From Umbilicaria muhlenbergii (Eukaryota; Ascomycota; Lecanoromycetes; Umbilicariales; Umbilicariaceae): 64,000 nt of DNA. The translations under genes were made by a program, and so were the position numbers. The stretch lies in the NCBI GenBank assembly GCA_000611775.1, contig KK106984.1, positions 2,687,246-2,751,245 of the forward strand, in the 5' to 3' direction. This document shows, one piece after another, positions 8,189 to 62,073 of the stretch. Below the pieces are notes generated by a model. That model ran no database searches, was not told the origin of the DNA, and saw nothing but the letters and a program-made list of their open reading frames with translations. Positions within the stretch are counted from its first letter, which is position 1, and the number at the start of each line of letters is the position of its first letter.

Positions 8189-8402
8189 TGTTAAACTATA
8201 GCGTCCCTTAGTAGAAAGGGAAGTATAGTTGAGGTATGTGACAGCATGAGATATAAATGTATAGAGGTTATATGATCCTAACTATATAAAACTAATAACT
8301 AAGGAGTGAAAGGGGGAGTGGTGAAGCAGCACAGAGTTTTATTGTGTGCATCATCAAGTCACTTAGAAAACACTAGCTCAGATGTGTTACTATATCATGA
8401 CA
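8189..8402 (-). repeat. Gyp1-a 5' LTR
   Basis: 214 bp, TGTTAAACTATAGCG to TATATCATGACA. It adjoins the gag side of the element and pairs with 1209-1422. Confidence 0.9.
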
Positions 8403-8515
8403 ACATAATTGCATGATGTTTGTTGATCTATTGCAGTTATGTTGAAAAATCTGTATTTTAAATAATTCCTGCAGGTCTGTGTTTGAATGTTGTGTGTTTA
8501 TACTACATATTATTC
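8403..8515 (-). pseudogene. LINE ORF2 N-terminal start region
   Basis: Minus-strand translation gives ELFKIQIFQHNCNRSTNIMQ immediately upstream of the Gyp1-a insertion. This is the expected start of a fungal LINE endonuclease, where a short lead precedes the conserved Q-N-C-N-R-S motif. It continues directly into INIMLIQE on the far side of Gyp1-a, so the element was cut inside this exon-less ORF. Confidence 0.7.
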
Positions 8516-25400: not shown

Positions 25401-25402
25401 TA

Positions 25403-40752: not shown

Positions 40753-40980
40753 TGTCACGGGTTAATAACAATTTAAAACTCATATAAGGTATATACTCTG
40801 TAAGTGACTTAACAGTGTTAATGAGTCACATGAAAACTCTGCACTGCTTAATCTCACCTTCATTCCTTAGTTATTAGTTTTATATAATTAGGATCATATA
40901 ACCTTTATACATTTATATCTCATGCTGTCATGAACCTCAATTATACTTCCCTTTCTAGTAAGAGACATTATAATCTCACA
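40753..40980 (+). repeat. Gyp1-b 5' LTR
   Basis: 228 bp, TGTCACGGGTTAATAACAAT to TATAATCTCACA, followed by a leader (GTTTTAATAACTTTACC) also found next to the Gyp1-a 5' LTR on the minus strand near 8170-8188. Confidence 0.9.
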
Positions 40981-43900
40981 GTTTTAATAACTTTACCTTT
41001 CAAAGAATGATGGCCTGAGATAAGATGCAGACTTGAAATCAACTACATCAAACTTCTGAAGCAGAATGAGACATGATGATGAAGAATTAATAAAATGATC
41101 ATGAAACATCACTCCTTTCTTCTGATATCAGTGAAGTGAACCTCATGAGTGAAGGATCCTCAGGTGAAACAGTGCACAACATTAATAATGAGATCATGCA
41201 AGTGAGATAATAATGAGATGAACTTTTAAAGCAACAAGAGTTACAACAGCTCTGAACAGAAGTTTTAACATTATGAATTAATTTACTTAAAGATCCTGTC
41301 ACCCGTGTTGATACCTCAGCTGATAAATTCCTCAACTTGATGAATGCTGAGTTTATAACAAGCAAGCACTACGCTGATGAAATGCTATTAATACAAAATG
41401 TATAATCAAGAATTCAGGCAAAGGAGTTGCTATTATAATCATTAGCAATTTAGCAAGTTAACTCTGACTCAGTTTTTAGCACTTTTAGCGCTCTGAGCTT
41501 CTGATCTCATGTCTCAGCTAACAGCTGCTCTTAGCACCCTCTGAGCACTTTGAGCTCAACCTTAAATCTTGAGCAAAACATCAAAATTTTGTGATAAAAA
41601 AACAATTATTAAAACAATTGTTTAAACAAGTACACACACAGTGTTATAATAACAGTAAAACTTATAATAAGTAAACTTTTGCTAAAATTCACTTTTCTGC
41701 AATAAAAAATCATGATTTGTTGAGTCTGAAAGCACTGTATAAGTGTTGAGTTCTGAATATTTAAAGAACTTCAAGATTTTCACCACTTAAAAATTTACAC
41801 ACTTTAATAACTTTTGCACCTCAACAGATATGAAGAAACTTTCAATGCATAAATTATAAAAAACAGTATTATCTATTAATGTTAAATTAAAAGTTTCTTC
41901 ATAACTGCAGTTGTTGTTAAGTTATATTTAATTCAAGTCTTCAATAGTGAAAAATCTTTCAAAAAAAGTCACATACTTTGAATAACTATTGCGCTTTTAT
42001 ACTTATAATATAACTTTCAGTTTATAAGTTGTAGAAAATAAGCTGTTTAAGAGTTTTCTTATACAAACTTTCTTTTTATGTGTTGTTGTTGTTGAGTTAT
42101 TCAAAAAGGCATTAAAAGTCTGTTTATTAATGTTGTGATTTTCACCACTGAAAGTTTAAAATCAATGTAACTTTTTAACAACAACAGTTATAAAAAAAAC
42201 TTTAAGTTATAAAACTGTTAAATAGCTTCTTAAAGTGTAAGATTTGTATGAGCTCATTTACTGCTCAGAGAGTGCTCTGAGCGCATAAAGTACTATTAAC
42301 TAAAACCTTATTTTTGAGCGGGCTGTCAAATTGCAGATGTATCATGACAAGAACATGAAAGAGCACTTGAATTAAATGTGAGATGCAAGAAATACCTTTC
42401 ATTTTAACTCAGCTGATTTCCCTCATGAGGAGGATAAGGTGATTTACATCATGTAATACTTAAAGAGTGAACCAAAGGAGGCGTGACTGTGAGATGATGA
42501 GATTAAAAATTATTTCACTGTTACTTGAGATGATTTTATGAAATTCCTGCTCAACATTATTGAGGACCCTGTGAATCATCAGTTTCACATCACTCAGCTG
42601 TATAATAATGCTGTTCAATTACCTCATCAATCAGTTTAAGCTTTCAATAGTTATTTAAGCACCTTGAAAGCTCAGTTACCTTCTTACAGTGAAGAGCACA
42701 TAAGGACTCACTTTTTCACAAAATTGAAACTTAAGATTCAGGCAGCCTTGATGAATTATCAGAACTTACTCACAACTTAAAAAAAATCATCATCTTAATT
42801 ATGCACTTGAAGAATAACTTATGTTTGAGAGGTGCTGCAAAATCAAAAGCAAATTTTAATATAATAATCATCTTCAGTTGTAAACCTGAGCTGTCATTAA
42901 AGTTTACTGAGAATAAGGATCATAAGCCTGATGAGAGCAAGATAAAAAGCAAGTGAGATAATAAACATGAAAGCAGATCAATGAAGACTCCTGAAATAAA
43001 AAACTTATCACATGTGACTTATTGAAATTATAATCAGAAGAGACATTATTCCTTTAATTATTCACAGCCTGTGAAAAACTCAGACTTAAATAAGACCCTG
43101 ATTGCAGCTGTTTCAACATCAAAAAATGAAAACACTTCAGTGAAGACTTCATATCATTGAAGTGCTGAACAAAAGTAGCCTCAGAGTTTAATTTAATTGT
43201 TGATGAACAAGTTCTTTACAATGATGATGTCATACTCATGCAAGCCTTATTGAACACAGGAGCTGAAGTCAATGTGATTTTACAACATTTTATTATTGAG
43301 TATCAATTGACTCATATGAAGGGCTTGTTGCCTCAATCTTAATTCTTAAATGATCAGAAGACTTACTGCTTCAGTGCTTATCATGTGTGTTATTAGCTTA
43401 CTGACAGTTGAGGATAATCTCATGAATGTAAATATGTGTTTTATACTTTAAATAAGTCAGGATCACCTCTTATCCTTGAACTTTTCACATTGAAAACTGA
43501 GCATGTGTGAATCAACTGCAGAATGAAGGCGTGATGCTTCAACATTAAGAAGCAGTTTATTGAGTTACAGTCACTTAATGAATTCATAAAAGAGATTCAA
43601 GATCACTCTGCTGTTTATGTCATGATATGAGTCAGTCTGAGTGATGACGCTGCATCAGAGGTGTGCATATAAAGTGTTGATATAACATAAGCTTTACCTG
43701 AGGAATACATTAATTATATGAATGTATTCTCAACAGAGAATGCTGACCTCCTTTCATCTCATAAGATCAATGATCATGCAATTGATTTAAATGACACAGA
43801 TTCATCTTATGACCCTTTGTATAATCTCTTCAATACTGAGCTAAAGGTGTTATGAGAATACCTGAATAATGTCTTAACAAAAGGTTGAATTTATCATTTC

Positions 43901-46900
43901 ATGAGCTCTGCAGGAGCACTCATTCTTTTTGTTTTAAAAAAAGATGAAGAGCTGCACTTATGCATTGATTATTAAAGGTTGAATAAAATGATCATCAAGA
44001 ACAAACACCTGTTACCTTTTATAAATGAAACATTGAATCAGCTTAATGAAACTAAGTTATTTATGAAGCTAAATTTAAAGAATGCTTATCATCATATTCA
44101 CATAAAGGAGGGTGATGAGTGAAAAATGATGTTTTACATGCATTACAGTCACTTTGAGTATATAATCATGTCTTTCAGATTGATCAACACTTCAGTTACA
44201 TTTCAAGTTTACATCAACTGAGCATTAACAGGACTTGTGAATGTCTTTTGTGTTATTTATTTAAATGACATCCTTATATACTCAGGATCATCAGTGAAAC
44301 ACTGAGAGCACATTAAGCAGGTGCTAGACAGACTTCATTGATTTCAACTGTATATAAACCTTAAGAAGTGTGAATTCTTTATTACAAAGGTGAAATTCTT
44401 AAAGTTTATTATCACTACTGAAGGCGTAGTGATGAACTCATGATGAGTGAACATCATATGAGACTGATCAGTATTAAGAACTTTTCAGGAAGTACAAGTC
44501 TTCCTGAGCTTTATGAACTTTTATAGACGCTTTATTAAATGTTATTCACAAGTTGCAGCCCCCTTAACAAACCTTATGAAAGATAACAAGAATGAAAAGA
44601 AGTTTAAGTCTTTTAAATTTTCAAGTGATGCAAAAGTGATGTTTAATCATCTTCATGAGGTCTTTACAATAGTGCTCATCCTGATTCACTTTGATTCAAA
44701 GTTATGAATACAGGTGAAAATGAATGCATTAATCATTAAACTCACTGACATCCTGTCTCAGCTGTTGAATAACAGGAAGTGACATTTAATTGTATTTTAA
44801 TTAAGAAAGCTGTCTCCTTTAAAGACTTAATATGAAACTCATGATCAAGAGCTTCTTGCCATCATTATGATGTTTAAACACTGATGACACTACCTCAAAG
44901 GCAGTTGTCATATCATAGAGGTATTAACTGATCATAACAATTTATGAGGATTTATGAACATGAAGGAATTGAATGACAGGCAAGCATGATGAGTAATAAA
45001 GCTCACTACTTTTGATTTTAATATTTTGCATCAGTTTGAAAAAATCAATCCTGCTGATGTGCTGTCAAGGTGATCAGACTATGAAGATGTTAAAGAGGTG
45101 AATGAAATCATGAAGAAATTACTCTTAACATTTCAGAGAAAGTTAATCACTCTTGTGAATGTATTCTCACTCAGATATGCCTTTATTGTTGAGCAGTTGC
45201 TCATAAGAGCGGGGAGAATGATCAGAATTAAAAACCTTAAACTTCAGAAAAAATGCTGAAAAAGTGATGACAAAACATTTACTTATAATGATTATGATGT
45301 AACTGTGAAACAGCTTAACCCTGTCACTGAAACTGTTGATTGTAAACAACTTGTTTCACATGTGATGATAAGAGATCTTGTCATTCATGAAACAGCTGAT
45401 GAAAGCCTGAGTTTACCTCTGAGAAATTTAATTCAAACTCTACAAAATGATGATTCATTTGTAGAAGTGACATACAACACTGATTGTACATCAGTGAAGT
45501 GCAAGGTTAAAGCTGAAAGTCTTTAAAGGTTTAACTCTGAAGGCCTTTTATTTCATGAGGAACAAATATACATTCTGAAAGAAAAGTCAATAAAAGTAAA
45601 GATTTTAAAACATCATCATGATGATGTCTTGACAGAGTATTTCAGGGTAGAAAGAATCCTTAAATTGATTGATCACAAATATTATTGAATTGATATGAGT
45701 CAAGATGTTAAAGATTATGTTGCATCATGTGACATCTGTCAAAGGATGAAAGTGTTTAAACATTATTTTTATGATGAGCTACAGGCGCTGCCTCAGCCAG
45801 AAGAATCATGACAATAAGTCATAATGAATTTTATCATCAACTTGCTGTCAAGTAAGTGCAAGAGTTGTATTTATGATGTGATCTTAATGATTATGAATCA
45901 GTATACAAAAATAACTTGATATATTTAAATCATGAAAATGATTACAACAACAGAGTTGACTGACTTGTTTTATGAGGAAATAATATGTTGATTTAATGTA
46001 CTGAAAGGGGTTGTCTCTGATTAAAGATTAATTTTCACAAGCACTTTCTGATTGAAAATGTGCTATTATTTAAGAATAAAGTATCAGCTAAGCACTGCCT
46101 TTCACTTGCAGATGAATAAACAAACAGAATAACAGAATTAAACCTTAAAACATTATCTTCATTATTATTACTCAGATGAACAAGACAACTGAATAAATCT
46201 TTTACTCTTAACAGAATTCACTTACAATAATGAAATACAAACATCAATAAAGTGCAGCTCTTTTTATGTCATGTATGCTTATCATTCAGAAGTAAGATTT
46301 AAAGTTGAGGATGATTTCAGAAAAAAAGAGGTACCTGCAGTTAAAAACTGAGTGAAATAATTTCATGACATACAGGAAGTGCTGTCACAATGATGAAAAA
46401 ATATAATTAAATCTCAGGCAAAATATTATGATGTTAAACATAAACTCAAGACTTATAATGTGAGAGACTTGATAATGTTATTTATGAAGAACTTATGACA
46501 GAAGTGCTTAAACAGAAAACTGTTTCATAAATTCATTAAATTATTTCAAGTTGAAGACTTAATAGAGAAGCAGATTTACAGGTTAACTTTATCATTCATT
46601 TATTAAATTTATAATGTCTTTCATGTCTTTTACTTGAAGTCTTATCAGTGCAGAGCTGATGATGACTTTAAATTATTACTGTCACCTTCAGAGTTAATTG
46701 ATGATGAAGAAGAATATAAAGTTGAAGAGATTTTAAATCACTGAAAATTCAAGAACAAAATCCTGTACAAAGTGAAATGAAAAGGTTGATCAGAAGAATA
46801 TGATCAATGAGTGTTAAAAAAGAACTTAAAAGGTGTGCAGGAAATGCATGTAATCTTTAATAATAAATTAAAAGAGTGCAGAAGAAAGTGATCAAGAAAG

Positions 46901-46985
46901 ATTTAATTAATATCATAAGAACACTTTTTCCTGATTTTTCTCAAGAGGTTTTACAGATTTTATTAAGACTTTATAAGTGATTTAC
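40981..46985 (+). pseudogene. Gyp1-b gag-pol remains with chromodomain
   Basis: Gag (about 41000-43100, with a zinc-knuckle region near 43020-43070), protease region (43150-43650), RT with a YLND core at about 44255-44270, the RT-RNase H junction open stretch 44513-44707 (MNFYRRFIKCYSQVAAPLTN), integrase (45540-46400) and a chromodomain at about 46715-46860 with ILYKVK. It is collinear with Gyp1-a on the opposite strand. The last block shared with Gyp1-a is the stretch near 46930-46985. Broken in many places. Confidence 0.8.
41438..42339 (+). mobile_element. TAX2: 902-bp TA-type MITE with clean target duplication
   Basis: Inserted in Gyp1-b gag. Ends are ATCATTAGCAATTTAGCAAG and GGCTGTCAAATTGCAGATG, giving a short inverted terminal repeat around GCAATTT. 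TA lies at both edges (41436-41437, 42340-42341). The Gyp1-a gag at about 7716-7740 shows the same site empty, with one TA and only transition differences. This fixes the ends and argues for Tc1/mariner-type transposition. No coding sequence. Confidence 0.85.
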
Positions 46986-47134
46986 AGCAAGAGTCATGAG
47001 TGATAAGTTCATTAAAGAAGATGAATCTTCAACAAAGTATAAAAGAATCATAATATTATTTCTGTCACAACAGCAGATCAAAGCAGGAAAAAGAATTATT
47101 ATATAAAATCAACAAAACATCAATAAAGAATTAT

Positions 47135-47990
47135 TTACTTCTCATCATCATTATCATCTTTCTTTTCATCTTTTTTATTCTTTTTCAGTTTCTCTGACCC
47201 CTCTGACCTCTTGAAAGGAGAAAAATCTTCATCATCATCATTTATAAAGTGACTGTCAGGATGGAAGTCCTGATCTGAGATGAAAAGATGAGACAGGATG
47301 AGATGAGATACAGAATCAAGCAGTAATTCTGTCCTCTGAGATCAGAACAGGAGTCTCATCTTGTTTTATTTCTTAATCTCAGTGAAATCCTGATCACATG
47401 ACTTCTTATATATGACTGTCAGTGGTTTTGAGACACGGGGAAAGGTTAATTCAGACACAGAGAAATTAATACATTGTAACAATTCATTATAATGATCTAG
47501 ACTATCAATCTATCTTAATGACTTTAATTTTAATCATTTTCTTTGCAGCTGTCTCTTGTTACTCAAGACATATTCTAGTCTTGCTCTTGAGTTGATTGAT
47601 GTTTTCATGAGTATGAAACTCAAGCTTAATGATTTATCATGCTGACTTGATAGAATTGATAACTCATTTAAGTCTTCAGTTACATCAGCAACATTCTGTA
47701 GCTTTGCAGGTGATCTCATATGATTAACATTAAATAATAATGCTTAAAGCTCATCATCATTCAGCTCATTCACATCATAATTCTCATTCATTAACTCCTC
47801 AGTATCACTGCTTCTTATTAGACAGACAATAATATATTACATTAAATAACATACCTGAATACTTCAATGACTCATTGTTTTTCTCTCTTATGTGTTGACA
47901 TATATCCTCCTTCACCTTTATGTCTGACATTTGATGCATCACCTTCATCATGTGATAAAGAAATGTGAGTAAGACTCTCAGCATCATTCA
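47135..47990 (-). pseudogene. Unrecognised cargo gene with acidic, lysine-rich C-terminal tail
   Basis: The minus strand ends in an open run of about 45 codons (47275-47135), including HFINDDDEDFSPFKRSEGS and a charged end of alternating lysines and acidic residues before TAA at 47135-47137. Upstream, 47719-47534 is open (SPAKLQNVADVTEDLNELSI) and 47990-47800 has coding-like sequence. An intron between 47530 and 47290 is possible. I do not know the family; the tail resembles those of many nuclear proteins. It lies downstream of, and in the same direction as, the hAT transposase, and could be a 3' extension of that gene. Confidence 0.35.
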
Positions 47991-50475
47991 TATTCACTCA
48001 TTGTGTTTCATATTCTTAATCATTAAGGGTGAGTTCATCTGCAGGAGGAGATTAATCATCTTGAGTATGTTATTATATATCTTCCTCATGTGTTATCATA
48101 TCATGAATGTGAGTAGTGTCACATTTTTTGATTATCATGATGTCAGATATAATGTCTGAGTTGAAGTGACTCTGATGATAAATAACAACATCTCATGTCA
48201 TGAAAAAAAGGTGCTTCACATTTATATCAGTTACTGATATAGCAAGAATGTTCTTTGTCATTTGTAATAAAGCAGGCTTACTGATCTTCAGCTGTTTTCA
48301 TAAAAGAAGAATGTTGTCATGCTTTAATTTTATTTCATTAAAGTATTATGAGGCTTCACTCTCTTGATAATTTTTCATCTCTCTTGATCTCTGAAGTGTG
48401 AAACTCCTTGAAGTTAAAAGAACACTCTTCAGAGATTTCTTCATCATGCTAAAAGGTGCAGATTGTTATGACTGATATTGAATAATCTTCTGTTCTTAAT
48501 AATTCACTTCATAATAATCAAGGAACTTTTATTGATATTATGCATAATCCTCAAAGTCTCATTCAGCGCTCTGCAGTAGTGATTAAAATATAAAGTTTAA
48601 AATCATTACAATAAATCATTAAAAATGTTGACTGCTTACCTTGAACAAATCAAGCTTCAAAGAAGAATCAAGGCAGGCATTTACTGTAAACAACACTCTT
48701 CACTCATCATACATTCACTCATAATATGTTGAAAGTTTATTTTTTACCGCTGCAACAGCCTCCTGCAGATTAAAAGATCATTTGAGTTTAAACTTTTAAA
48801 CTTCTTAACACTGTCACTTTAAATGATCAAAAAGTTCATTATAAGTGATTTAAGTGCAAAAAATGTTTAACTGATCTGTCACTCTCAGTGCATCTGTAAA
48901 GCTTTAAAATGATTATAATAAACTGATGAGATACTTGACCTGCTCTCATTCAATGTCACTGAGTATCAGAACTCATCATATAAACTTTTTCTCTTTTATT
49001 CATTCTCTGCTGAACTCACGCATCTCATATGCTCATTTAAGCATGAAGAAAGAACTGTTTCATCTTGTCACAACATCTTCAATTAAGCTCTTCTGCAAAT
49101 GAGGGGGTGTATTAATCTGAGTGACTTTATATCTCTTAAGTCATTGTGATGATGAGTTGACTGCAATGACTAATGCATGAACCTGAACGCAAAGTTAATT
49201 GATCATTATAATATATCATTAGAAAGACTAAAATCTTTTGAAATGTAAAATTAAAGTTTTTATCCTTCTCATGCACCTCTTTTAATTAACTCAGTGTTTT
49301 GACATCTCACTTCTTTATAGGATTGTCATTGTTTGCTGACACTTTAAGTGAGTGTAGTAGTGCGTTGACAGATAGTTGAAAGACATGTGTCATGCAATTA
49401 ACAGTATTCATGTCTTCATTTCAATGAATCTTTTATTTTCATAGCAGTGATGTCAGCTTCATGTGCAGTGTTTCATTATTCAAGGCATTGTCAGCTGTGA
49501 TAGCAAGGAGCTTATTCAGGAGCTTATAATTATTAAGCACATTTATTATCACCTTTGTTAAATTCTTCCCTGTATGCTTGCCGTGAAGAGGGGAAAACTC
49601 AAGAAGAACCTCATGATAATCTCAGTTATCATTTATGAAGTAATCAGTGATGTCAAGAAATGCAAGATTATTTGAACTTGTTCAACAGTCAAGTGCTAAA
49701 GAAACTTTCATTCTTGATTTTAATTTTATTAACACAGTTTATTTAAGTTCCTTTGCTCACTTCTTAACAAGGTGAGAGAACTTGATTTAATGAGAAACCT
49801 CAACATCAAATTAAAGAAAATCAAGCAAGCATAAAAATGAGAAATATTTAACTGAGCAGAAAGACATGTTGAGGTCAAGAATTATTTAAACAAGTTGATT
49901 CTTAAAAGCTTCTTATGTAAATCTGCTAAACGCGGGCTTAATGAGTACAGAGTTGATGAACTGAAGTCATATCATTAGAATATATTGTTATAACAGGAGT
50001 TTAAAGAAGTCAGTACTTTTTATAATAATTAAAGAAGAGTCATCTGCCCTGTTTGATTCACTTCACAATTTTTAATGTTGATATGCTTTGTCATATCATT
50101 GCTCCCTGTATCATTAAAATTAAGATGTTTCAGAACTTTTTCACAAAGTTTACAGATAACAGCAGGCTTCTCAGTTTTAATTTCAACAACTTCATGATAT
50201 GATGCTCACAGCAGAGCCTTTCACTTTGTATTACTTTAAAGAACAGACTTGTGTTTTATCATCTTTTTAAGTGTATCTTGACCTCATTTCATTCTCTCTC
50301 ATCACACTTTGAATTCATCATGAAACTTAAAGATTTAAAGAACATAATCACTCTTTCTGTTTTATAAAAGACATGCTGATGATGATTCAGTGATAAATAA
50401 GAGATCAACAGAAGTTGACTGTGAAGCTGAAGCTTAATCATCTTCAAAAGTAAGAGTAAATTGTGAGAAAGTCAT
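47991..50475 (-). pseudogene. hAT-family transposase gene (Restless-like), degenerate, with intron
   Basis: Cut-and-paste DNA transposase. The probable start is the ATG at 50475-50473 (MTFSQFTLTFEDD). An N-terminal BED-type zinc finger lies at about 50160-50065, with VICKLCEKVLKH, then H and C in HINIKNC. The catalytic core follows: TSSNNLAFLDIT (about 49690-49645), HGKHTGKNL (about 49590-49560), KLLAITADNALNNETLH (about 49507-49457) and MTHVFQLSVNALL (about 49395-49355). The C-terminal hAT dimerisation region is at about 48360-48110 (KPALLQM, FNSDIISDIMII). An intron at 48639-48571 has GTAAGC and CTGCAG ends. Several tryptophan positions now read TGA, so the frame is interrupted repeatedly. 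I could not find convincing terminal inverted repeats. Confidence 0.75.
48571..48639 (-). other. Intron in the hAT transposase gene, 69 bp
   Basis: On the minus strand it opens with GTAAGC and ends CTGCAG. Flanking exons encode SLKLDLFK before and the YY-rich region of hAT proteins after it. Its size fits fungal introns. Confidence 0.65.
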
Positions 50476-50789
50476 GCTGTCTTAAGATGAATAATGATGT
50501 TAAAGGGTATGAGAATACAGAAAGCTCTTTGAATTAAATAATTTATTTAAACAGAGCTTGAATTTTAATCACTTAATTAAAAAAGTACATACATGCATTG
50601 AATTAAAGATTAAACTATTCTGAAAAAGGAATTTTAATGCATGATTATGATGATTAATGTTACCTGACAAATCACACAGTCTGATTGATGTGTTTAATAT
50701 TTGTTGAACAGTCAACATTCTTGAAAATGTCTGATCATGTCAGATAATACTTGTTTACTTCATTAAGATTCAGACTTTGATTTATTCAT

Positions 50790-51329
50790 CTACTCATCAT
50801 CTGCATCATTTGCATCATCTGCATTTGCATCATCTGCATTTGCATCATCTGCATTTGCATCATCTGCATTTGCATCATCTGTGTTTTTATTTTTAAACTT
50901 TTTCTCCTCATATCCTGTAGCTACCTCACTCTCTATGAGGATACTATTGTCATCAGGGACAAAAACAGCTTCAAGATGCTGAATAAAGTCATCAGAGCCT
51001 GTAGTAATTGAGGAAAGATTAACATCATCTTCATTATCATCCCTTTTAAGAATTTCAGATGACTCTTTGATTATGAAATCAAACATTTGATCATCCTCAT
51101 TAAAATATGCCTCAGATGACTCTGTATGAACTGTTTTAATCTGTGAGTCAGCAATTATGATAATATTCTTCTTCAGAACCTGTTGTCTCAGAGCAGAGTA
51201 CAAATAATTAAACAGTTTTGAATAAATATCATTATAATGAAATGTTAAAATGTAAAAAACTTGCACTGATTGCTCTTCTGAATCTTTAATATGATCTGAG
51301 TTCATAATCTGTTTACAGAACTTTCTCAT
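50790..51329 (-). CDS. orfX last exon: open 179-codon acidic protein segment
   Basis: An uninterrupted frame from MRKFCKQIMNSDHIKDSEEQ to the stop just below 50790. It probably continues upstream in frame from a 3' splice site near 51470, with a further exon rich in Q, E and K near 51660-51540. No signal peptide or membrane segment. The first half is mixed, the middle acidic and serine-rich, and the C-terminus carries five DDANA repeats. No tryptophan occurs, which may explain why it stays open where TGG is lost. I do not recognise a family. The split gene is interrupted upstream by Gyp2-b. Confidence 0.45.
   Translation of the reverse strand: MRKFCKQIMNSDHIKDSEEQSVQVFYILTFHYNDIYSKLFNYLYSALRQQVLKKNIIIIADSQIKTVHTESSEAYFNEDDQMFDFIIKESSEILKRDDNEDDVNLSSITTGSDDFIQHLEAVFVPDDNSILIESEVATGYEEKKFKNKNTDDANADDANADDANADDANADDANDADDE
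50811..50885 (-). repeat. 15-bp in-frame tandem repeat in orfX
   Basis: Five units of TGCATCATCTGCATT; the last differs slightly. On the minus strand each encodes five residues (ANADD), so copy-number change keeps the frame. Confidence 0.85.
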
Positions 51330-51801
51330 GATGTTGACTGAGTCAAGATCTTCAGCATTGATTAAGTCTTGAAGATCATTAATTCAGGTGATTTGTTCAT
51401 AACACTTCACAGAGATGACAAGTCTGATGATGACAACTCTTTAATATTCATCATCTTTTGAATCCTGCATAGTCATAAGCATGCATGATCATTACAAGAG
51501 ATCATTATAATATTATCATAAAGATAAACAGCTTAAATGCAGATTCAGAGTCTTCTCTTAATGCTTTTATTATATTAAGAGTTTCTGCATGCTCCTGTTC
51601 CTCTTTCTGTTGCATTTAATATGCTGCATGACACAGCTGTTGCTCATGTTGCACTTAAAAGAATTTAATTATCATTTGTGAGTTGATTCCTGAATTGAAA
51701 TGTAGAAAGAAAAACACATATCATTTTCATCAGTATTGAAATGATCTGTTAAAACATTTAGTTGATACTTCTCTTTCATAGCTTTTTAATCTGCTGAGTT
51801 G
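51330..51801 (-). pseudogene. orfX middle exons with two probable introns
   Basis: Minus strand. The coding-like block HEEQ/KEEQEHAETLNIIKALRED (about 51650-51550) is flanked by intron-like stretches. One near 51770-51690 opens GTATCAAC and ends TTCAATTCAG. The other, near 51540-51470, ends GACTATGCAG. The exon block DLINAEDLDSVNIMRKF joins directly to the last exon. The Gyp2-b insertion with duplication AGTTG (51797-51801) cuts the gene here. Confidence 0.4.
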
Positions 51802-52008
51802 TGTTACAGCTAGCTATTTCACTTCATAAGCAAGCTTAAAACTGTTGCAAGAGGTGAGCTATTTGAACTTAAAAAAGTACAAAGAAGGAAGCAGTCTTGT
51901 GAGTGCAATCATGATATAAATGTCAAGGTGCTAAGACACATTAGTCTTAATTTAATTTAACATCAGGTAGTTTAATATTCATCAGTGTCAGTTGATCATG
52001 TCATAACA
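51802..52008 (-). repeat. Gyp2-b 3' LTR
   Basis: 207 bp, TGTTACAGCTAGCTATTTCA to GATCATGTCATAACA, with a purine tract (GAAGAAGGATAA on the minus strand) adjoining at 52009. Confidence 0.9.
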
Positions 52009-55000
52009 TTATCCTTCTTCAGACAGAAGGATTGTCCTCAGTTTTCATTTTAAGTCTTTCATCTTAACTGCCTCTTGAATTCTTTATTGATTGTCATGTT
52101 GTTTTTATTCATCAGATTCAGCTCTTCACCTGACTTGTAAGCATTTAATTAAACTTGTAACCTCCTCAGTGGCCTCACCTCATTTAAATAAGCATCATGA
52201 TAATTCTTTACCTTTTGAGGTGACTCTATAAAGTCAACAGCATCATATCATTTCAAGTTTAAATCATATCCCTCTCAAGTCACTTGATATTGCAGGATGT
52301 TGTTGCAGATCTGACTTATTAAAAAAATTTTCATCATGTACTCAGGCTGATCATTAACTTCAGTCAACAGCTTCAGGTCCTGAATTTGATTCAACATTAA
52401 GTCATTCATCACTTTCTTTAAATGATCAACATGAAAGATGTTGTTCATCATCCTGTGTTCAAGTAACTTCAGAACATAAGAATGACCTTTCATGCTGAGA
52501 ATCTGATAAAAGCCTGTCACTTGATGATTTAACTTTAAATTAAGTCTTTCAGTGATTCAACTCTTTTGAATAATGTAGACTCAGTCTTTGATGAAGAAGT
52601 TTAATTTCCTTCAGTGCTTATTTGCTTGATCTGTCATCTTATTTTAAGCCCGTTTCAGGTTTTCCTTTACTCATTTAATTGTGTCATGAGCTTTGATAAC
52701 AAAGATTTGAGCTTCTTCTCTTGTCAGTTGCTCCCTTACAGTGTTCAAGGATTGCATTCATTCTTTTTAATGAAAATGTAAATGAGGGGTCTGTTTCAGC
52801 TTCAACTCATAAGGTGACATGCCTGTGAACTCATGAGTGAGAACTGCTTGAGTGAAATTCATTACTGATAAAAGGTCTGATCAGTTGTCTTGAAAGTGAT
52901 TCATGAAGAGATGAAGCTGTTGATTGATGTATTAATTCAGTACCTCAGTGCTTTCATCTGTCTGTGAGTAATATGCTGTTGAAAGCTTTTGCTTTACCCT
53001 CACAAGCTTGCAGAGTTCATTCATGAATGTTGAGATGAATTGAGACCCTCAGTCTGATGTTGCTGTCTCAGGTGTTTTATAAATTCTTCAGATGTACTCA
53101 TAATATAATTACATAACTTGAGCTGTCATAACTGTCTTCTGACATGACAGTGAGAAGGCCCTTTTTTTATAGTAATTAATAATGACAAATATATTATCAA
53201 AGCCTTTCTTGTTCTGTGAGAAGAATTTAAAGTTGAATGAGACATGCTGTCAGCACTTATCCTCAATTAATAAAGAGTGAAGTAGGCCTGAGGTCTTGTC
53301 TCAGAGTACATGCATTCAATGACATGTTCAGCAGTTTGAAATAAAAACTGAACAGTCATTTGACAGACCTGATCAGTAATACTGAATTAACAACAGCTTT
53401 GCCATCTTAATCTTGCTTGAGTGCATCATCACTGATGTTGAATGAGCTTCATTAATCAAATGAGTCTGCAAAGTGTCAACATTCAGCATCATGAGCTTCT
53501 TAAATCATGTAAGAAGATTATTTTAAAGCTTTCAGCTTTATTCCTCCTTTCTTGTCATCTGATGATACTGGTTTAATGATTCATGAAAGTGATTGACTTG
53601 CAGAATTTGATTCATTAACTGATAAGAATTTTTCACCTGTTCAATCTCATTCAGTGAATCATTTTTGATGTTCATTGAATCCTCACTTATTGTGATTATT
53701 ACATAATTAGAATTCAGAAACAGCTGTGTTCATGCAGCAATGTTTTTTTCTTTCTGAGTGATCAACTCATCATGTTTTCTTGTCAGAGCATCAGCAACAA
53801 TGTTGACTGTTCTTGAGTAATAAGTAATCTTGAAGTTGTAGTCTGTCACAATATCAGCTCATTTAGCTTGTCATGAATTAAGCAATCACTTAATGATAAA
53901 GTACTTTAAAGCATGATGATCTGTAATTGTGACAAAAGGAGCTGCTTGTAGACTTAATAACATGCTACATCATTCTTGAAAGGCTTTAACAACTGTTAGC
54001 ATCTCTCTGTCATGAATCTCATATTGCATTTCCTCAGGTGACATTGTCTTTGAGAAGTAAATTACAGGTTTTCACTTGTCATCTTTCTGTTGCTGAGTGA
54101 GCACTTCTGTAACAACTTCACTGCTGACATCTGTCTTCATTCAAGTTTTCAAATAAGATGAGTAATGAGCTTGAACAGCATCTGATAACATCAGCTCTTT
54201 TGCCTTCTTAAAAGCTTAAATTTTCAGCTCTTCTAAGGGGTGTCAAGCCCCTTTTGTGGTCAGCTTTATCAACAGGTGTACAACTCAACCTCATTTTTTT
54301 AATGAGCAATGATAGAAGTTGCAGAATCTCAGGAAGAACTGAATTTTCTTAACTGATTTCAATAACAGTCAGTTCTTAATGACAGAAACTTTGTTTGAGT
54401 TCATTATAATATCTTCAGTGCTGATGATGAAGCTCAGAAACTTGATAAATTGAACATTAAACTCACTCTTCTTTATGTTCACTTGTAAACTTGCTTTCTT
54501 AAGATGTTGAAGCACCTTTTTAACTTGAGCATCATGTTTCAACAGATCCTCTGAGTAGATCAAAATATCATTCACATAAATTATGCAGAAATCATTCAGG
54601 TGATTGAATAAAATGTTGTTGATATATCTTTGAAAGAAGGTGAGTTTGTTGCAAAGATTAAAAGATAAGATCTTGTATTTATAGAATTCATACCTCATCT
54701 GAAAGATGATTAAATCCTCAACAGACTTTTTCATCTGTATTCAGTAAAACACCTGCTTAACATTCAGTTTAATAAAAACCTTTGCTTTAATCAGTCATGT
54801 TAAAGTCTCTTCAATTAAAGGCAAGAGGTACTTATCCTTCTTAATGATTGCATTAAACTTTCAGTAATCAACATAAAAACATCACCCCCCTTCAGGTTTC
54901 TTTGCAAAGAGAATTGATGACATGTAAGAAGCATCATTAAGAATTATGAAATTCTTTTTCAAGTGATCTTCAAGGTAAGCCTTGATTAACTTTAACTGCT

Positions 55001-57791
55001 TCAGTGACATGCTGTATAAGAGACTTGAGGTCAGGTTGTTCTCATCTTTCAAGATGATATCATGATTCACTTTTTTCTTATGTAAAGGCAGCTGATCTGA
55101 TGTCATCTTGCTGAAAATCTTCATAAACTCTTAATACTAATGAGGTAATTTTTCTTTATTTTTTAATTCAGCTCTGTTTTGTTCTGCAGCAGCAGACAGA
55201 GGTTCCTTTGATTTTTTATCAGATGATCAACCTCATGAATGTTAATGACACTGATAATCACCTCTTTTCTTTTAACATTGCATAGGAAGTTTCTTGTTTT
55301 CAGAAGTGTAATATTCACTTCTTGATAAAGAGGAGGTTTATGATCCTTTGATTTCTTTACATTCAATGAACTTTAACCTTCATTCATTGAACCTTTCTTT
55401 TCATTCAGCTGTTTTTTCATCTCATTAATGTTGACCTGCTGTTGAGCTCTTCATGTCTTTGATTGTGCTCATAGCTGCAGGACTGACTTTTTAAGCAGTT
55501 TAATAAACTTTTTCTTTCACTCATTTAACCTTGTTGAATGTTCAGTATCTTCAGGGTCAACTTTATTAAGTGTCATTATGATTTTATTCCTTTCTGCTCT
55601 TCTTAAGATCTGAGTCAGTGTTGCTGCCTCATGCAGATTATCATGTTGTTCAGCATTTATTTAATGTTCTGATTTAACTTCTGATAGCTGTAATTTTCAC
55701 CTTGATATCATCAAGTTCTTGCTTGCCTGATATTGAGCCTCCTCAGGTCAAATCAGCTTTTGATTAAAATAATTAATCAATATCTTAATCTTCTTGAATC
55801 ATTTCCTCTCAATCAGAACATCATGCCTGCTGATGTTATAAAATAAGAAGTGAGTAAAGATTCATCTTCTGTTAATTATTAAATTTGCTGTAAATGCTCT
55901 GAAGATCATCTCAGCATTTCAATTATTATATTCTGTTAAAAGAATTGACCTCTGTGCTGTCCTGATGTATAACTGCAGATGCTTTTTCACAAATTTATAA
56001 TGCTTCTTATGAATGAAAGCCTTTTCAGCAGCATCAGTGTTTAGCAGAGTTACTACTCTTATGATTAAGCTGTTGACTGCAAGTTGATAATCTTAAGTTA
56101 ATGATGATCTCTTTAAAATGTTTAACATCTTCATCTTGTTTATCTTTGCTCCTTTCATTGACTCTAGAGTGAAGACTTCACTTAAAGTAGCTCATTTTTC
56201 AAATCTGAATGATCAAAGTTTACAGCCTTTGCCTCAGCTTTCTTTAACTTATCAGAATAATTCCTCATCAGGTGTTCTTTCTTATTGCAGATGTAATAAA
56301 TTACATCAGTTAACATTAATCTGATTGCTTCTCATGCAACAGCAGTGATTGTGATGATTGTCTTCTTTTTAAATTTAAAAGTTGATTGTTTCCTCTGCAG
56401 CTTCTGCTGATTCTTTTGTTTCTTGATTCTTTCACTCACTTTAACAAGATCTCTCATGAACTGTTGAGTCTTCTTACAGTAAACATCAAATTACATGTTC
56501 TCATCAGCAACATAAATTTTCATTTGAACTCAAAGTGAGTTGTATAACTTGTCATGAATTTCCTCTTTTCACTGATCTGTTGGCATCTTCACTGAGTTTA
56601 TCAGTCATAGAAACTCTGACTGAAACATGTTAAAGTTCTCAAGATAAGGCATCTTGAACTTCTTCAACTGCTCTCATGCCTTCAAGTGATGATCTGAATC
56701 CTTGAAGACATTTTTTAAGTATTAAATAATTTTCTCAACATAAATTTCTCTTCCTGACTGAGTCTTCAGTCATGAATAAAGGTGTTCAGCAGCCTTGCTG
56801 TCAACTTGCATCTTAATGTAAATCACTTTAACATGTTCAGCTTTATCTTGATCTGATTGATTGAATCAATCATCATTGATTAATAACTTGCTCTTCATCT
56901 GATCATCTCATACTCAGAATGTGAGCTTAAGATCATCATTCAAAATTGATGAATTTAAAAACTTCACTGAACACTTCTTCATTATGTCATTCATGTTTAA
57001 TTTAAGTGTGCCTTCTCTTGATCACTCTGCTTCAGAATTGTTAAATCATCAAGTTAACTTCAACACATTCTGTTTCAATTCTTGTTTCTCAGTTGTTAAC
57101 TTCTTTATCTGAGAGTCTTTCTGATTATTCTGTTCTTTTAAATCTTGTATCTGTGCCTTATATGAATCTCTCTGATTTAGCACCTTTAACATTAAATGAC
57201 AGATGTTCTCTGAATCATGTGCTGCTCATCACTGTAAATTTTCAGAGGTCACCTCACCTCAAGGATTCACCTTCATGATGTTTATTATTTTTGATCTCTC
57301 ATGATCATTCAGCTGTTCTTCAATTAAGAATAATCTTTCAGATTAAGGAGAGGTTCCTCTTTTTTAATGTAATTTAATCATGATTTCTTCAGTGCTTCAG
57401 ACATCTACTTTTAGTGTTGAGATTATTCAGTTTAAAACCTTGCTCTTTCAACTGCCTCTACTGCAGTTGTTTATGTTTACAAATAAGTCTTTGAAGACAT
57501 CTACATGTTGCAGAACTTTCTGTTTATTATAACTGCTTCTCACAATTACCTGTCATTGTGACAGAGTACTTTTTAATCATTCATTGCTTACTTGTTGCAG
57601 GACTTGAGAATTGATTGTTAATAATTAATTAATGAATTTAAGATGTTCTAGGAACCTCTTGATCACTCAGTAGACTGTAAATTGAGATGTTTGATGATGT
57701 TGAGGAAGAATTTTCTCATCAACATATGTGTTTATCTCAGCTGATATTCTGTCACCTTCAGAGGTCAAAAAGAGTGTGAGTACTTTTCTAA

Positions 57792-57998
57792 TGTTACAGC
57801 TAGTTATTTCACTTTATAAGCAGGCTTAAAACTGTTGCAAGAGGTGAGTTATTTGAATTTAAAAAAGTACAAAGAAGGAAGCAGTCTTGTGAGTGCAGTC
57901 ATGACATAAATGTCAAGGTGTCAAGACACATTAGTTTTAATTTAGTTTAACATCAGGTAGTTCAATATTCATCAGTGTCAATTGATCATGTCATAACA
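57792..57998 (-). repeat. Gyp2-b 5' LTR
   Basis: 207 bp, TGTTACAGCTAGTTATTTCA to GATCATGTCATAACA. Partner of 51802-52008. Confidence 0.9.
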
Positions 57999-58003
57999 AG
58001 TTG

Positions 58004-59390
58004 ATGACTTTTCATGCATCAGTAAGCCTTAGCTTTTTCTTAACTTGAAAGACAGCAGCTTGATCATGATCATCAGTTTTTAATAACACTGCTTCATCAG
58101 GATTCTGCATCCTCTCATGATGAAGTTCACACACCTCAATCACCTTTTAAGATGTTGTGAAATATGAGTCAGCAGTCTTTTTCAGGCTGAAATCTGTGAA
58201 GTTTTTCATAAGTGCTTCAATGATCCTGTTTGCTGCCTTAACAGTTGTTTTTACTTGAACTTTTTCTGTTATAAACATTCCTTCTTCACCTTCAATGTAA
58301 ATTGAAGGTTTTGTATACTTATTAAGCATTTTGAGCGCTAAGAATGCATAATTAGTGATTTCATTACAATAAATCATTAGAATACCTACTGATCTTTGTT
58401 TAGAAACTGTTAATATCATTATTCACTTCAGTCTTTATTCACTTTGTGCGCAGCTTATAAGGGGTAGTAAGAACAGAGAGTGTTGAAGAGTTTAAAATTT
58501 ACTCAGTTTGCACATTCTCATCATCAGATTACGCTGTATGAGCATGTTTTTTCATTGATGATGTCATCATGAAGGACTCATTCACTTACACTGATGATGA
58601 GAAGTGTTCAGCAAGGCCTGTCATGTATAATCAGTCAATAAATCATTATAACATCTTGTTATAATAAAAAATGTTAAAACTCACTAGTGAAGACTTCTGC
58701 AACAAGTGTGACATGTGAGTCACTCACTTGAGCTGATAATGAGGGAACAGGAGGTGTTGAAGAGTTTAAAATTTACTCAGTTTACACATTCTCATCATCA
58801 GATTGCGCTGTATGAGTGTGTTTTTTCATTAATGATGTCATCATGAAGGACTCACTCACTTGCATTAATGATGAGAAGCATTCAGCAAGACCTGTCATGT
58901 ATAATCAGTTAATAAATCATTATAACATCTTGTTATAATAAGAAATGTTAAAACTCACTAGTGAAAACTTCTGCAACAGGTATGATATATGAGTCACTCA
59001 CATGAGTTGATGATGAGGGGAGTTCTACAAGACTTATCATGTATAATCAGTCAATAAATCATTATAACATCTTGTTAAAATAAAAAATGTTAAAACTCAA
59101 TAGTGAAGGCTTCTGCAACAGAAGTAACTTAAAAATCACTCTCTTAAACTGATGATGATGAGAGTTCTACAAGGCCTGTCATGTATAATTAGTCAACAGA
59201 TCATTATATCATCTTTTTTAATAAAAGAAGTTAAAACTCATTAATGAAGTCTTCTTCAACAGAGGTAATACTCATTCTTAGTAGAGCAGACTGAGCTGAC
59301 TGATCATAAAAGTTAAAATGTGCATCATGAGAGTCATGAGGCTCACCACAAAGGCCAGGATGTGAAATATCATGAGTAAAAGATGTGCAT
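58004..59390 (-). pseudogene. orfX 5' part: unrecognised gene with duplicated exon-intron block
   Basis: Minus strand. The open stretch 58419-58147 encodes YTKPSIYIEGEEGMFITEKV and later AANRIIEALMKNFTDFSLKK; coding signal continues to the Gyp2-b junction (KVIEVCELHHERMQNPDEAV, AAVFQVKKKLRLTDA). The N-terminal part lies in the tandem block at 58481-59280. Introns of 67 bp at 58684-58618 and 58958-58892 begin GTGAGTTTTAAC and end CATGACAG; one more may end near 58330. No family is recognised. The gene is divergent from the CENP-A-like gene at 59768 with about 370 bp between them. It is broken in several places. Confidence 0.45.
58481..59280 (-). repeat. Tandem duplication of an exon-intron unit in orfX
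   Basis: Two full units (58481-58754, 274 bp; 58755-59020, about 266 bp) followed by two partial units of about 142 bp (59021-59162 and 59163-59280). Each full unit contains one 67-bp intron and exon sequence that reads, on the minus strand, SDDENV and ILNSSTPPVPSLS, then VSDS and VAEVFTSEF. Splice-site-like ends are kept in both full units, so the duplication acted on genomic DNA and would have lengthened the protein. Confidence 0.75.
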
Positions 59391-59767
59391 TCAATGATTA
59401 ATGAGAAGACTGCTTGCAGGTTAAGAGATAAACAGTTTATAAAAATATGAATGATTGAGGTGAGGAGTGACAGAAATTTGAGATGAAGATGATGTCAACA
59501 TGATTTTATTAATGCACACTTTAAGCTTAATGTAAAAGCACATGACATTGAAATAACATCATGACCTTCACTCATTTTATGATTTCAACATCATTCACAA
59601 TCACCTTCACTCACTTTATGATCTCAACATCATTCATTATCACAATAAATCATCAGTTCATAACATGTAGATTCTGTATTCTAAACATAATGATCATTTC
59701 TAACATTTCAGAATGACATGAATGAAATAAATAACAATCAAAGCACCCTGAAAAGCCTCAGTAACTG
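59391..59767. promoter_or_regulatory. Divergent intergenic region between orfX and the CENP-A-like gene
   Basis: About 370 bp with no convincing coding sequence. It contains a 39-bp tandem pair at about 59568-59645 (units beginning CCTTCACTCA and holding TTTATGAT). Being shared by two diverging genes, it is the natural place for both promoters. No specific factor site is recognised. Confidence 0.35.
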
Positions 59768-60455
59768 ATGAAAAGACTGCTGCAAAAACAAAAGCAAAAG
59801 CTGATTCAACTCATGCTGTGCATGTTAAGGTCAAGGTCAAGGTCAATCTTAAGAAGAAGAAAATCAATGCACAAGTCATCTTCATCATCATCATCATTTT
59901 CATCATCAATTATCAACAGCGCCTGGCACAGTATCATATTAATATTCATGTATGAAGAACAGCTGATGCTGCTGCAAGAGCAACAGAAACTTCACATTTA
60001 ATTGAAAAGCTTATAATGTTTAAACCTGCTGCACGGCCTGATGATAAGTTATATCAGCATAATAACAATCAATTCTAATGATTTATCTCAATGATTGTAC
60101 AGTTCAAGTGCTGCATGAAATCAAATGATATCAAAAGTCAACAGATCTCCTCATTTCAAAAGCCTCATTCAGTAAAATTGTTCATGAGATCATGACTGAA
60201 ATGATGTTTACTGAGGACATGAGCTTTCAGATACAGCATATCATGTTGAAGACATTACAGGAAGTGATGAAAGAGTACATGATATTCTTTTTTAAAAGTG
60301 AAAGTTCTAACCTCCTATTTTTAATGTTATACTAATTCAACTTTTATCTAGACACTCAACTTGCCGTCATTCACAGCAAGTGTATCACAATACAGTCAAA
60401 GGATTTGACACTTGTGAAGCAGTATATGAGTGAATTTGATGCTTTGATTCAGTAG
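59768..60455 (+). pseudogene. Degenerate CENP-A-like histone H3 gene with one clear intron
   Basis: The histone-fold part is at 60095-60297 and 60352-60455. Translated blocks are YQKSTDLLISKASFSKIVHE (H3 alpha-N and alpha-1), LKTLQEVMKEYM (alpha-2) and LAVIHSKCITIQSKDLTLV (loop 2 and alpha-3). H3 proteins place an FEDTN-type block where the 54-bp intron 60298-60351 lies. The interval between the HEI block and the LQE block is about four residues longer than in canonical H3, as expected for the extended loop 1 of centromeric H3. The upstream tail (59768-60090) is basic and serine-rich (KTAAKTKAKADS, RSRSRSILRRRKS) but its frame is disturbed. Stop at 60453-60455. Expected role: centromeric nucleosome. 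H3 kinship is fairly sure; the CENP-A class is inferred. Confidence 0.65.
60298..60351 (+). other. Intron in the CENP-A-like gene, 54 bp
   Basis: Begins GTGAAAG, contains TTCTAAC and TACTAATTC as branch-point candidates, and ends TTTATCTAG. It interrupts the fold between alpha-2 and loop 2. Its presence shows the gene was not copied from spliced mRNA. Confidence 0.75.
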
Positions 60456-60863
60456 ATACAGTTAATCATGTGCAGATTATATTGAAACTCAATTCAACAG
60501 TTTTAACAATCAAATGTAATGATTTATTATGAAATGTAAACTGATGACTCCTTAAATGATGTTTATCTTAATGTAATATTGTATCAAGCCTTTTTAGGTT
60601 AGGTTTAAGTTACTGTCATCATGACATATTAATGATGCAGAGATAACAGAACTATTTCTGTCTCATCTTGTCAACAAAATCAAGATGAAACTGAAAAATC
60701 ATCATTAAAACAAAACAGGATCAGGATGAGACAGAGATTAAAAATTTAATTTTATTTCATCTCAACAGTCATCATAATCATCAACAAGAGCAGGCAAATG
60801 CTTTTAAAATTAAATGCAAGTTAATTGATCTTAACAGTCAAGAAAGAGGTGTGAAGAAGAAGA
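60456..60863. other. Cargo stretch without a recognised gene
   Basis: AT-rich. The only visible structure is a short inverted pair, CTGTCTCATCTTG near 60660 and GGATGAGACAG near 60722. Similar GATGAGAC-type motifs occur near 47287, but the similarity is too short to call terminal repeats. Confidence 0.35.
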
Positions 60864-61560
60864 TTAAACAAAGTATTTCATGATATTTAAAATATTTTTA
60901 AAAATGACATTAATGCACTTGATCTGCTTAAGGAGCAGAAGATTGACCTTAATAATAAACTTTAATTTTAATGACTTCTGATGACAGTCAGCAACATGAA
61001 GATGCACTGTAATTTTCTTGTTATAATACTTTTGACGCGCCTTGAGGGCGGTCAGGAGGGCAGGTGAAGAAGCATTAATATTAATTTTATTAATTAAGCA
61101 GATCAAGATGTTTACCTTATAAATAAAATGCATAAGAACTTTAAATCATCAGTGAGATACAACAAGTAAGCAGATTAAACTTACTGAAAGACAAGCCTTG
61201 TGCAAGTTTACACAATATGTGCACTTAACATTCACGCGTGCATCACATACCTGAGTCATGTCATTCATGAAATGATGACTACATCAGAGGCAGAAAGGTT
61301 TGATCAGTCATGCATGTAAATCAGTAAATCACTTAGCAATGAGTGAATGCTATACAATGCCTTGCATTAAAAGCACATGTGTGAAGTCAGCTTCTATGAC
61401 TTACAGGTATGTTAAGAAGTTGTGAAGAAGTTAATGAGCAAGCAAAGAGAATGATATGTGTTGATGTTAAGGTGATGAATCAGAGCTCTGACAAAAGTTG
61501 ATGACAAAAGGTTGAGAAGTTGATAATATTTATACCTTGAAGCTCTTGTTGTGATATCAC
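60864..61560 (-). pseudogene. Unrecognised cargo gene fragment
   Basis: The open stretch 61133-60864 contains SPALLTALKARQKYYNKKIT and SLKLKFIIKVNLLLLKQIKC. A rare GC-rich patch (61033-61063) sits inside it. Farther upstream are a TATAAATA sequence near 61540 and possible splice signals (GGTATGTGATG, CTTTCAG near 61245 and 61190), so this could be a gene with a short 5' exon. No family is recognised. Confidence 0.3.
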
Positions 61561-61773
61561 TGCTCATGATCTGAGTAGTGTCATCATAGTGTTATCATGA
61601 CTTCATTGTCATGACTTCACTGCTGTCTCTTCACTCCTCAGGGTTTTCACTGTCATGTGATTAACTCATCTCATTATTATCTCACTTAGTCAGTGCTGAT
61701 GTTGTGTCATCATCTCAATTGTTAATTAAGCTTTTCATCAGTCACTCACCTTTCTGTGCTGAAGGGCCGCCGC
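61561..61773 (-). other. Last cargo segment, exon-like end next to the polypurine tract
   Basis: On the minus strand the bases just inside the 3' LTR read LPPPYAAALQHRK followed by GTGAGT, which looks like an exon end and 5' splice site. The stretch includes another unmutated GC patch (GAAGGGCCGCCGCA at 61761-61774). The resemblance may be chance, because the same bases align with the conserved 3' end of Gyp1-a. Confidence 0.25.
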
Positions 61774-61789
61774 ATAAGGAGGAGGCAAT
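61774..61789 (+). other. Gyp1-b polypurine tract
   Basis: AAGGAGGAGGCAAT directly left of the 3' LTR. It matches the tract of Gyp1-a in position and sequence, and both are preceded by GCTGAAGGG. This supports 61790-62017 as a genuine 3' LTR and not a solo LTR. Confidence 0.75.
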
Positions 61790-62017
61790 TGTCACAAGTT
61801 AATGATAATTTAAAACTCATGTAAAATATGTGCTCTGTAAGTGACTTGACAGCATTAATGAGTCACATGAAAACTCTGCACTGCTCAATCTCACCTTCAT
61901 TCCTTAATTATTAATTTTATATAGTTAAAATCATATAACCTTTATACATTTATATCTCATGTTGTCATGAACCTCAACTATACTTCTCTTTTTAGTAAGA
62001 GATGCTATAGTCTCACA
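61790..62017 (+). repeat. Gyp1-b 3' LTR
   Basis: 228 bp, TGTCACAAGTTAATGATAAT to TATAGTCTCACA. Same length as 40753-40980 and flanked right by the target duplication ATTTA. Confidence 0.9.
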
Positions 62018-62073
62018 ATTTACCTGTATCATAATAATGATTTGAGTTTGCATGAACTAAAAATGATAACTTA

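Follow-up and report, generated by a model that had tools for sequence, protein, structure and literature searches.

A hAT transposon carrying a histone H3-like gene, nested in a gypsy element of Umbilicaria muhlenbergii

We analyzed a 64,000-nucleotide stretch (the window) of the ascomycete Umbilicaria muhlenbergii (GCA_000611775.1, contig KK106984.1), in which a gypsy-type long terminal repeat (LTR) element at 40753–62017 encloses a block of host-like genes. An initial annotation had proposed that 40753–62017 entered as one unit, with these genes as cargo between pol and the polypurine tract. We found that only the gypsy frame did so (net approximately 6.8 kb, by subtraction) and that the block is a separate hAT DNA transposon, not gypsy cargo, with a second, equally separate LTR element nested in it. 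It is very probable that the region as a whole arose by nested gypsy, hAT, and LTR insertions and that the histone H3-like gene of the hAT is old and has been under selection. The junctions show an order of three steps, in which a gypsy-type LTR element entered an older element (duplicating ATTTA), an H3-bearing hAT entered the TCA-rich gypsy 3' region (with an 8-bp duplication, 6 of 8 positions kept), and a second LTR element split the hAT (duplicating AGTTG).

The genome searched comprised 34.8 Mb in 7 contigs (prefixed C below; the window is C4:2687246–2751245). Following a check suggested in the initial annotation, the block was searched for separately with 2 probes, 46960–51800 and 58005–61789, the best 40 candidates per probe being scored, and the resulting counts are lower bounds. 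Each probe returned 2 populations, ordinary gypsy copies and hAT copies. In the gypsy population, 46960–47242 joins 60756–61789 directly, whereas in the hAT population, the repeat covers approximately 47245–60776 minus the nested LTR element, with no gypsy flank. The hAT repeat was identified at a minimum of 13 other loci, none with gypsy flanks: at least 12 carry a near-complete left part at 90–92% identity, plus fragments, and the thirteenth (C2:6675415–6680254) lies in 2 pieces. The insertion point was empty in all 9 gypsy loci examined (L030–L038), 6 of them read directly and 3 judged solely by how a conserved open reading frame (ORF) is spaced. The left flanks read at 17 other hAT loci are distinct, apart from one shared by L012 and L025, and right flanks differed among the 16 read, except for L047 and L048, a duplication representing one locus. 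The identical left flanks of L012 (C2:3319345) and L025 (C2:1529661), at distant sites, may be an artefact of the assembly or a product of recent segmental duplication.

Members of the hAT superfamily move by cut and paste and leave an 8-bp duplication. Compared by eye across copies, the left end of the repeat reads TA(R)GGTGACYGCYGRGAYGG and the right end CTCAACRGYCAYYRTA, with inverted ends TA(R)RGTGACYGY... and ...CAACRGYCAYYATA; terminal inverted repeats (TIRs) were likewise seen by eye, left TARGGTGACYGY versus the reverse complement of the right, TAYGGTGRCYGT. The 8 bp outside the ends form a perfect duplication in 8 of 13 end pairs and agree at 6 of 8 positions in 3 more, including the window copy, where the left duplication, ATCATTTA, is the final 8 bp of the gypsy segment 46960–47244. 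Across the pairs, 85 of 104 duplication positions were identical, whereas 10,000 partner shuffles averaged 33.3 and never exceeded 59. A 15-bp target duplication, derived from match coordinates, was dropped for 8 bp after many copies had been compared, and identities as LINE, Starship, or Helitron were dropped given the TIRs, the 8-bp duplications, and the hAT dimerization domain (PF05699).

The features that had been reported for the gypsy frame were recovered, with a direct pair of 228-bp LTRs (88% identical), ATTTA on both sides, and a purine-rich tract upstream of the 3' LTR. The empty site proposed for another copy of the element hosting the gypsy is plausible, since that element resumes at 23714–23767, as judged from alignment coordinates only and not from a base-by-base alignment. 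The pol pieces matched RVT_1 (E 0.005) and Integrase_H2C2 (E 0.0034), each below the Pfam cut-off. Host-gene-bearing LTR retroelements carry host-like sequence flanked by LTRs, and the LTR pair, target-site duplication (TSD), and purine tract intact around the block would suit a mobile 21-kb unit whose genes had been captured by reverse transcription or recombination. Unlike in such elements, the genes here arrived with the hAT: the block retains an intron, the insertion point is uninterrupted in each of the 9 other gypsy copies examined, and elsewhere the block stands alone, bounded by TIRs and 8-bp TSDs of its own, so that gypsy-borne cargo is exceedingly improbable.

The alternative raised at the outset, a DNA-level insertion into an element that had already landed, was right in that the insertion was later, but what inserted was no host gene cluster; it was a hAT that has a transposase, a central ORF, and an H3-like gene. 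Likewise, the approximately 8.6 kb singled out earlier is indeed neither gag-pol nor nested LTR element and has coding potential on both strands with a plus-strand intron, but it is not free of later insertion, the hAT itself being one. A host-like gene with an intron could also mean that DNA repair had put a host gene block into the landed gypsy; yet the block recurs at dispersed sites and has a transposase and the ends of a transposon, no single-copy syntenic source locus was present among the matches listed, and the host H3 (C1:484450–485050) and CENP-A (C1:2892050–2892900), both named from sequence, lie elsewhere and share only 40% and 35% identity, respectively, with the H3 of the window, which leaves this explanation with almost no probability. 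Nested elements can thus mimic multigene retroelement cargo.

The H3-like gene of the window hAT has the H3 fold and the motifs ALQE and IH.K..TIQ.KD, and its 54-base intron contains a branch-point-like TACTAATTC. The histone domain PF00125 matched its open piece at E 2.7e-5, just below the cut-off, and in the genome search the gene scored E 1e-5, over the cut-off, with one stop read through. We identified 16 H3 matches of this family (family A), each within a hAT-probe match, some of them in fragments without transposase. Among 33 copies read, the spliced H3 core, as distinct from the tails, was stop-free in 3, namely L077 (type A) and 2 of type B2 (described below). Upstream in L066 and L067, a KAP*KAS stretch resembles part of an H3 tail, with no ARKS motif in that frame; as the start codon was not established, the resemblance is a lead only. 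The gene could alternatively be a captured CENP-A that aids insertion near centromeres, given its STDLL motif, the longer loop 1 of type A, and the top Protein Data Bank (PDB) matches of the window piece, CSE4 (closest, E 3.5e-7) and Cnp1. However, type A has TIQSKD like host H3, whereas host CENP-A has TIMQKD; type B3, in a query with one typed residue, retrieved an H3/CENP-A chimeric chain first and an ordinary H3 next; and host H3 and CENP-A, the only 2 host references, group apart from all mobile types. A CENP-A origin seems unlikely.

The window family is one of several H3-carrying lineages in this genome. PF00125 gave 69 genome matches, of which 45 were sorted as first exons by place and sequence, with 16 of type A, 16 in B clusters, 12 of type C (11 read), and 1 of type D; by our own reading, the other 24 are second exons, host histones, and other proteins, although only some of them were read. 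The B clusters contain 4 distinct paralogs, B1–B4, in the same order at C2:6621730–6627035 and C3:3464613–3470153. The element of the C2 cluster extends over approximately 6621253–6632496 (11.2 kb) and includes a hAT transposase. Family B ends read TAC(R)CTGCAYCATG, with the TIR TACGCTGCA, and a perfect 8-bp duplication, AATATAAA, flanks the interrupted C5 copy, 1 of the 2 copies read at both ends; the flanks of the other, on C2, do not match. With its TIRs, hAT transposase, and 8-bp duplication, family B is therefore a hAT with 4 H3 genes. Lineage D is more decayed and has a homologous central ORF together with H3.

Other copies of these families were also observed. An approximately 147-bp family-B end (L068, 51–198) matches at least 30 further places at 83–88%, which suggests small nonautonomous derivatives. 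The H3 stretches of L084 (C5:14010) and L085 (C1:5902460) are identical at distant sites, by recent segmental duplication or as an assembly artefact. Family C (L069, C2:2373000–2379500) is a repeat whose length is at least 4.0 kb; its H3-like gene, found at 12 places, is degenerate. The splicing, the tree, and the counts below cover the types other than C. Two family-C copies contain an insertion of approximately 660 bp whose terminal approximately 134 bp are the same as those of family C, as would be expected of a nonautonomous relative.

The hAT and gypsy copies are heavily decayed by transitions. The observed/expected CpG ratio was 0.09 in the window and 0.07 in the element, the 26 differences between the gypsy 5' and 3' LTRs comprised 26 transitions and 0 transversions, and of the 1133 columns that vary across the left 4.55 kb of 13 hAT copies, 1074 contained transitions only, mostly preceding A or T and not G. 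On this combination of CpG depletion and transition-only differences, the decay is of a kind resembling repeat-induced point mutation (RIP), and LTR divergence is no clock. The transposase pieces seen are now broken through this transition hypermutation. Within the H3 genes, 14 type A copies showed 2276 transitions and 0 transversions, and the B types showed 64–165 transitions and 0–6 transversions (pair counts, which are not independent), after exclusion of A_L076, which has lost its last exon, and of the duplicate copies A_L072 and B3_L085. Transversions are thus nearly unaffected by the hypermutation.

A, B1, B2, B3, B4, and D have in common a phase-1 intron, which interrupts the codon following LFE after its first base; the 3' splice site of D is mutated. 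Neither host H3 nor host CENP-A has an intron at that position. Identity to host H3 was 0.47 for A (L065), 0.40 for the window copy and D, 0.53 for B1, 0.54 for B2, 0.49 for B3, and 0.46 for B4. In a tree of 15 of 35 rows (33 H3-like and 2 host), host H3 and CENP-A formed one group (96/91), and A+D (95/99) and B (93/92) lay outside it, with D on a long branch. Between A and D, H3 transversions affected 31 of 192 first and second codon positions versus 38 of 96 third positions (p 1.6e-5), with the same counts for every A copy tried (15 of 16), and between B1 and B2, 17 of 188 versus 18 of 94 (p 0.014). The third-position excess was also observed for A versus B2 (p 0.0026) and A versus B3 (p 0.046), with host H3 versus CENP-A as a yardstick (p 6.7e-8), and extended to the central ORF, where A and D differed by transversions at 43 of 246 first and second versus 46 of 123 third positions (p 3e-5). 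Because of the shared intron and the third-position transversions in both H3 and central ORF, the mobile H3 looks like an old working gene of the transposons and not a passive capture.

The transposase and the central ORF lie on the opposite strand. The dimerization domain PF05699 was identified at 24 genomic places, of which 16 belong to the window family, with 9 of these 16 over the cut-off (best E 3.4e-5), and it is broken by at least 2 stops in every one of the 16. A BED zinc finger lay just below the cut-off in L023 (E 0.0015) and in the window copy. Read in that domain's frame, the A dimerization domain matched that of B (E 3e-5 to 4e-4), and none of 6 other hATs of the genome matched at E 0.01; the core of family A lies in another frame, so this comparison bears on the dimerization domain only. 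One of the 6 (C1:2162690) is 9 kb from the D locus, and no H3 match was found near the remaining 5. The core piece of A matched B at E 2e-11. Families A and B are thereby suggested, but not proven, to be sisters, as the cores of hATs without H3 match A as well (below).

The central ORF is cut in two by the nested LTR element. Family D retains it, placed likewise with respect to H3 (tblastn E 1e-17 and 1.5e-5). Pfam searches of the central ORF gave no known domain and only chance-level matches, apart from a pentapeptide-repeat match in the tail of one copy only (E 9.9e-6, below the cut-off), and its alignments retrieved nothing from PDB profiles (best E 0.38 and 0.17). A search of a large protein database brought up 45 candidates with a piece of the central ORF and 1 with the spliced H3; none was scored, and no relative from another species was placed. 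The divergent H3 and transposase sides, with tandem repeats between them, may share a promoter region.

Several points weigh against this account of an H3-bearing hAT with an old, selected gene. The duplication of the window copy is imperfect and lies within a microsatellite; 2 of the 13 end pairs fail, L022/L053 being offset by one base and L025/L046 probably representing 2 different copies; and a fourteenth pair, L018/L045, was left out of the count with its left end unreadable. The dimerization domain of the window copy is below the cut-off. The central ORF has no significant homolog in family B, where a match by eye misses E 1, and there is no transposase in the examined part of the D locus. 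Core pieces of 3 of 4 hATs lacking H3 likewise match family A (E 1e-8 to 6e-7), and a longer stretch of the window element matches 2 other hATs at E 9e-11 and 3e-9. The H3 tree includes only 2 nonmobile sequences over 98 columns, the third-position excess is not significant for B3 versus B4 (p 0.17), and the p-values of the 6 codon-position tests are uncorrected for their number.

Elements of the same kind have been published, and we compared the window element with their descriptions. In Pyrenophora tritici-repentis, a 5.6-kb hAT carries H3L, which is neither H3 nor CenH3 (Manning 2013, PMC3538342), and by its description has, like the window element, a transposase, a central ORF of unknown function, and a diverged H3-like gene between TIRs. 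The Pyrenophora copies are nearly identical and potentially functional, in contrast to the decayed window family of approximately 7 kb, and unlike in that report, further H3-carrying families occur here in the same genome. H3-hATs were also described in Pseudocercospora fijiensis and 5 other Mycosphaerellaceae (Dhillon 2019, PMC6710886), with, as here, copies inactivated by RIP-type transitions; in P. fijiensis, each element has 1 or 2 H3-like genes and 8-bp TSDs. The P. fijiensis element is approximately 9.5 kb, with an H3 reported as intronless (from a transcript or retrocopy) and no hATC domain found, whereas here the intron is kept, hATC was found, and family B has 4 H3 paralogs. Further, a TET/JBP dioxygenase is encoded by diverse fungal DNA transposons, hAT included (PMC12730594), which likewise carry a chromatin-related accessory gene, although that enzyme acts on methylcytosine and the gene here is a histone.

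The published H3-hATs were read as transduplications, the Pyrenophora event as an independent one (PMC6710886, PMC3538342), and by analogy the H3 here could be passive cargo from recent and independent captures, one per hAT family. The intron common to A, B1–B4, and D, the low identity to host H3 (40–54%), the third-position excess between mobile lineages, and the co-conservation of the central ORF in A and D speak against this, and we consider it unlikely. The evidence would be better explained by a single ancient acquisition of H3, followed by selection at the protein level while the transposons diversified. To the question raised by Manning et al. (PMC3538342) of whether captured H3 genes are under selection, the diverged families, the shared intron, and the third-position bias in H3 and central ORF while mobile suggest that the answer is yes, apparently. 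In the portions of the open-access literature searched, we found no report of a hAT with 4 H3 genes or of a shared H3 intron; relative to that literature, what is new is the four-H3 family, the presence of several H3 lineages in one genome, the shared intron, and the signs of selection in H3 and central ORF alike.

A broader proposal, for which we see about even chances, is an ancient clade of three-gene hATs of filamentous fungi (transposase, central ORF, and a divergently transcribed H3 variant) in which the mobile H3 was inherited, selected, and expanded to 4 paralogs within a single element. The transposon would bring along its own nucleosomes, and the Pyrenophora and Mycosphaerellaceae elements would be branches of this clade and not independent captures. 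Such nucleosomes would probably serve resistance to heterochromatin marking or DNA accessibility. More tentatively, the element's H3 might form nucleosomes on transposon DNA, where an altered tail and fold could hinder heterochromatin (H3K9-type) marking or ease access of the transposase, and the central ORF product might be a partner of the transposase or of the histone. If so, supplying a histone of its own would give a transposon a new means of meeting host chromatin defence, and the mobile H3s would offer natural variants with which to test what parts of H3 silencing requires.

Table 1. Positions of the annotated features within the window.
Feature	Position	Strand	Remarks
Target duplication ATTTA (5 bp)	40748–40752 (left), 62018–62022 (right)		
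5' LTR of the gypsy element (Gyp1-b of the initial annotation)	40753–40980	+	
Repeat of ~0.9 kb in the gypsy 5' part	41436–42339		Copies at 11743–12646, 24110–24830, 62072–62997
Broken gypsy gag-pol	42640–46741	+	Colinear with 3099–7742 of the first gypsy copy
Gypsy 3' segment preceding the hAT insertion	46960–47244	+	TCA-rich microsatellite at its end
hAT DNA transposon	47245–60776	-	13,532 bp; ~7.3 kb minus nested LTR element
hAT dimerization domain (PF05699)	48127–48351	-	E 0.21, 3 stops
hAT catalytic-core piece	49442–49621	-	
BED zinc finger piece	50032–50205	-	E 0.0054
Central ORF, second part	50793–51383	-	197 aa, acidic repeats at end
Duplication AGTTG of the nested LTR element, perfect	51797–51801 (left), 57999–58003 (right)		
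Nested LTR retroelement	51802–57998	-	207-bp LTRs, 94% identical; RVT_1 on minus strand
Central ORF, first part	58150–58422	-	91 aa open; homolog in family D
Tandem repeats between central ORF and H3 gene	58471–59268		Spacings 274 and 142 bp
H3-like gene, exon with alphaN to alpha2	60103–60297	+	One stop; start inferred from sequence
H3-like intron	60298–60351	+	GTGAAA...TACTAATTC...CTAG, phase 1 after LFE
H3-like gene, last exon with stop	60352–60455	+	
Right 8-bp hAT duplication, ATCATCAA	60777–60784		6/8 equal to ATCATTTA
Rest of the gypsy 3' region, to the polypurine tract	60785–61789	+	
3' LTR of the gypsy element	61790–62017	+	

We also made several observations on the gypsy element itself. 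A 93-amino-acid ORF lies antisense in its 3' region (60867–61145, minus strand), with tblastn matches in 9 of 9 other gypsy copies (L030–L038) at 61–78% identity, some with stops; either an antisense gene or simple conservation of the DNA could account for it. In the first gypsy copy, Gyp1-a (1208–8403), the 3' region between pol and LTR seemingly differs from that of the other gypsy copies, as the antisense ORF had no match (E 1e-3) within the initial 3.5 kb of the window. The repeat of approximately 0.9 kb in the gypsy 5' part has an inverted-repeat structure, is TA-rich (TA/AT >1), and forms a head-to-head pair at 24110–25401.

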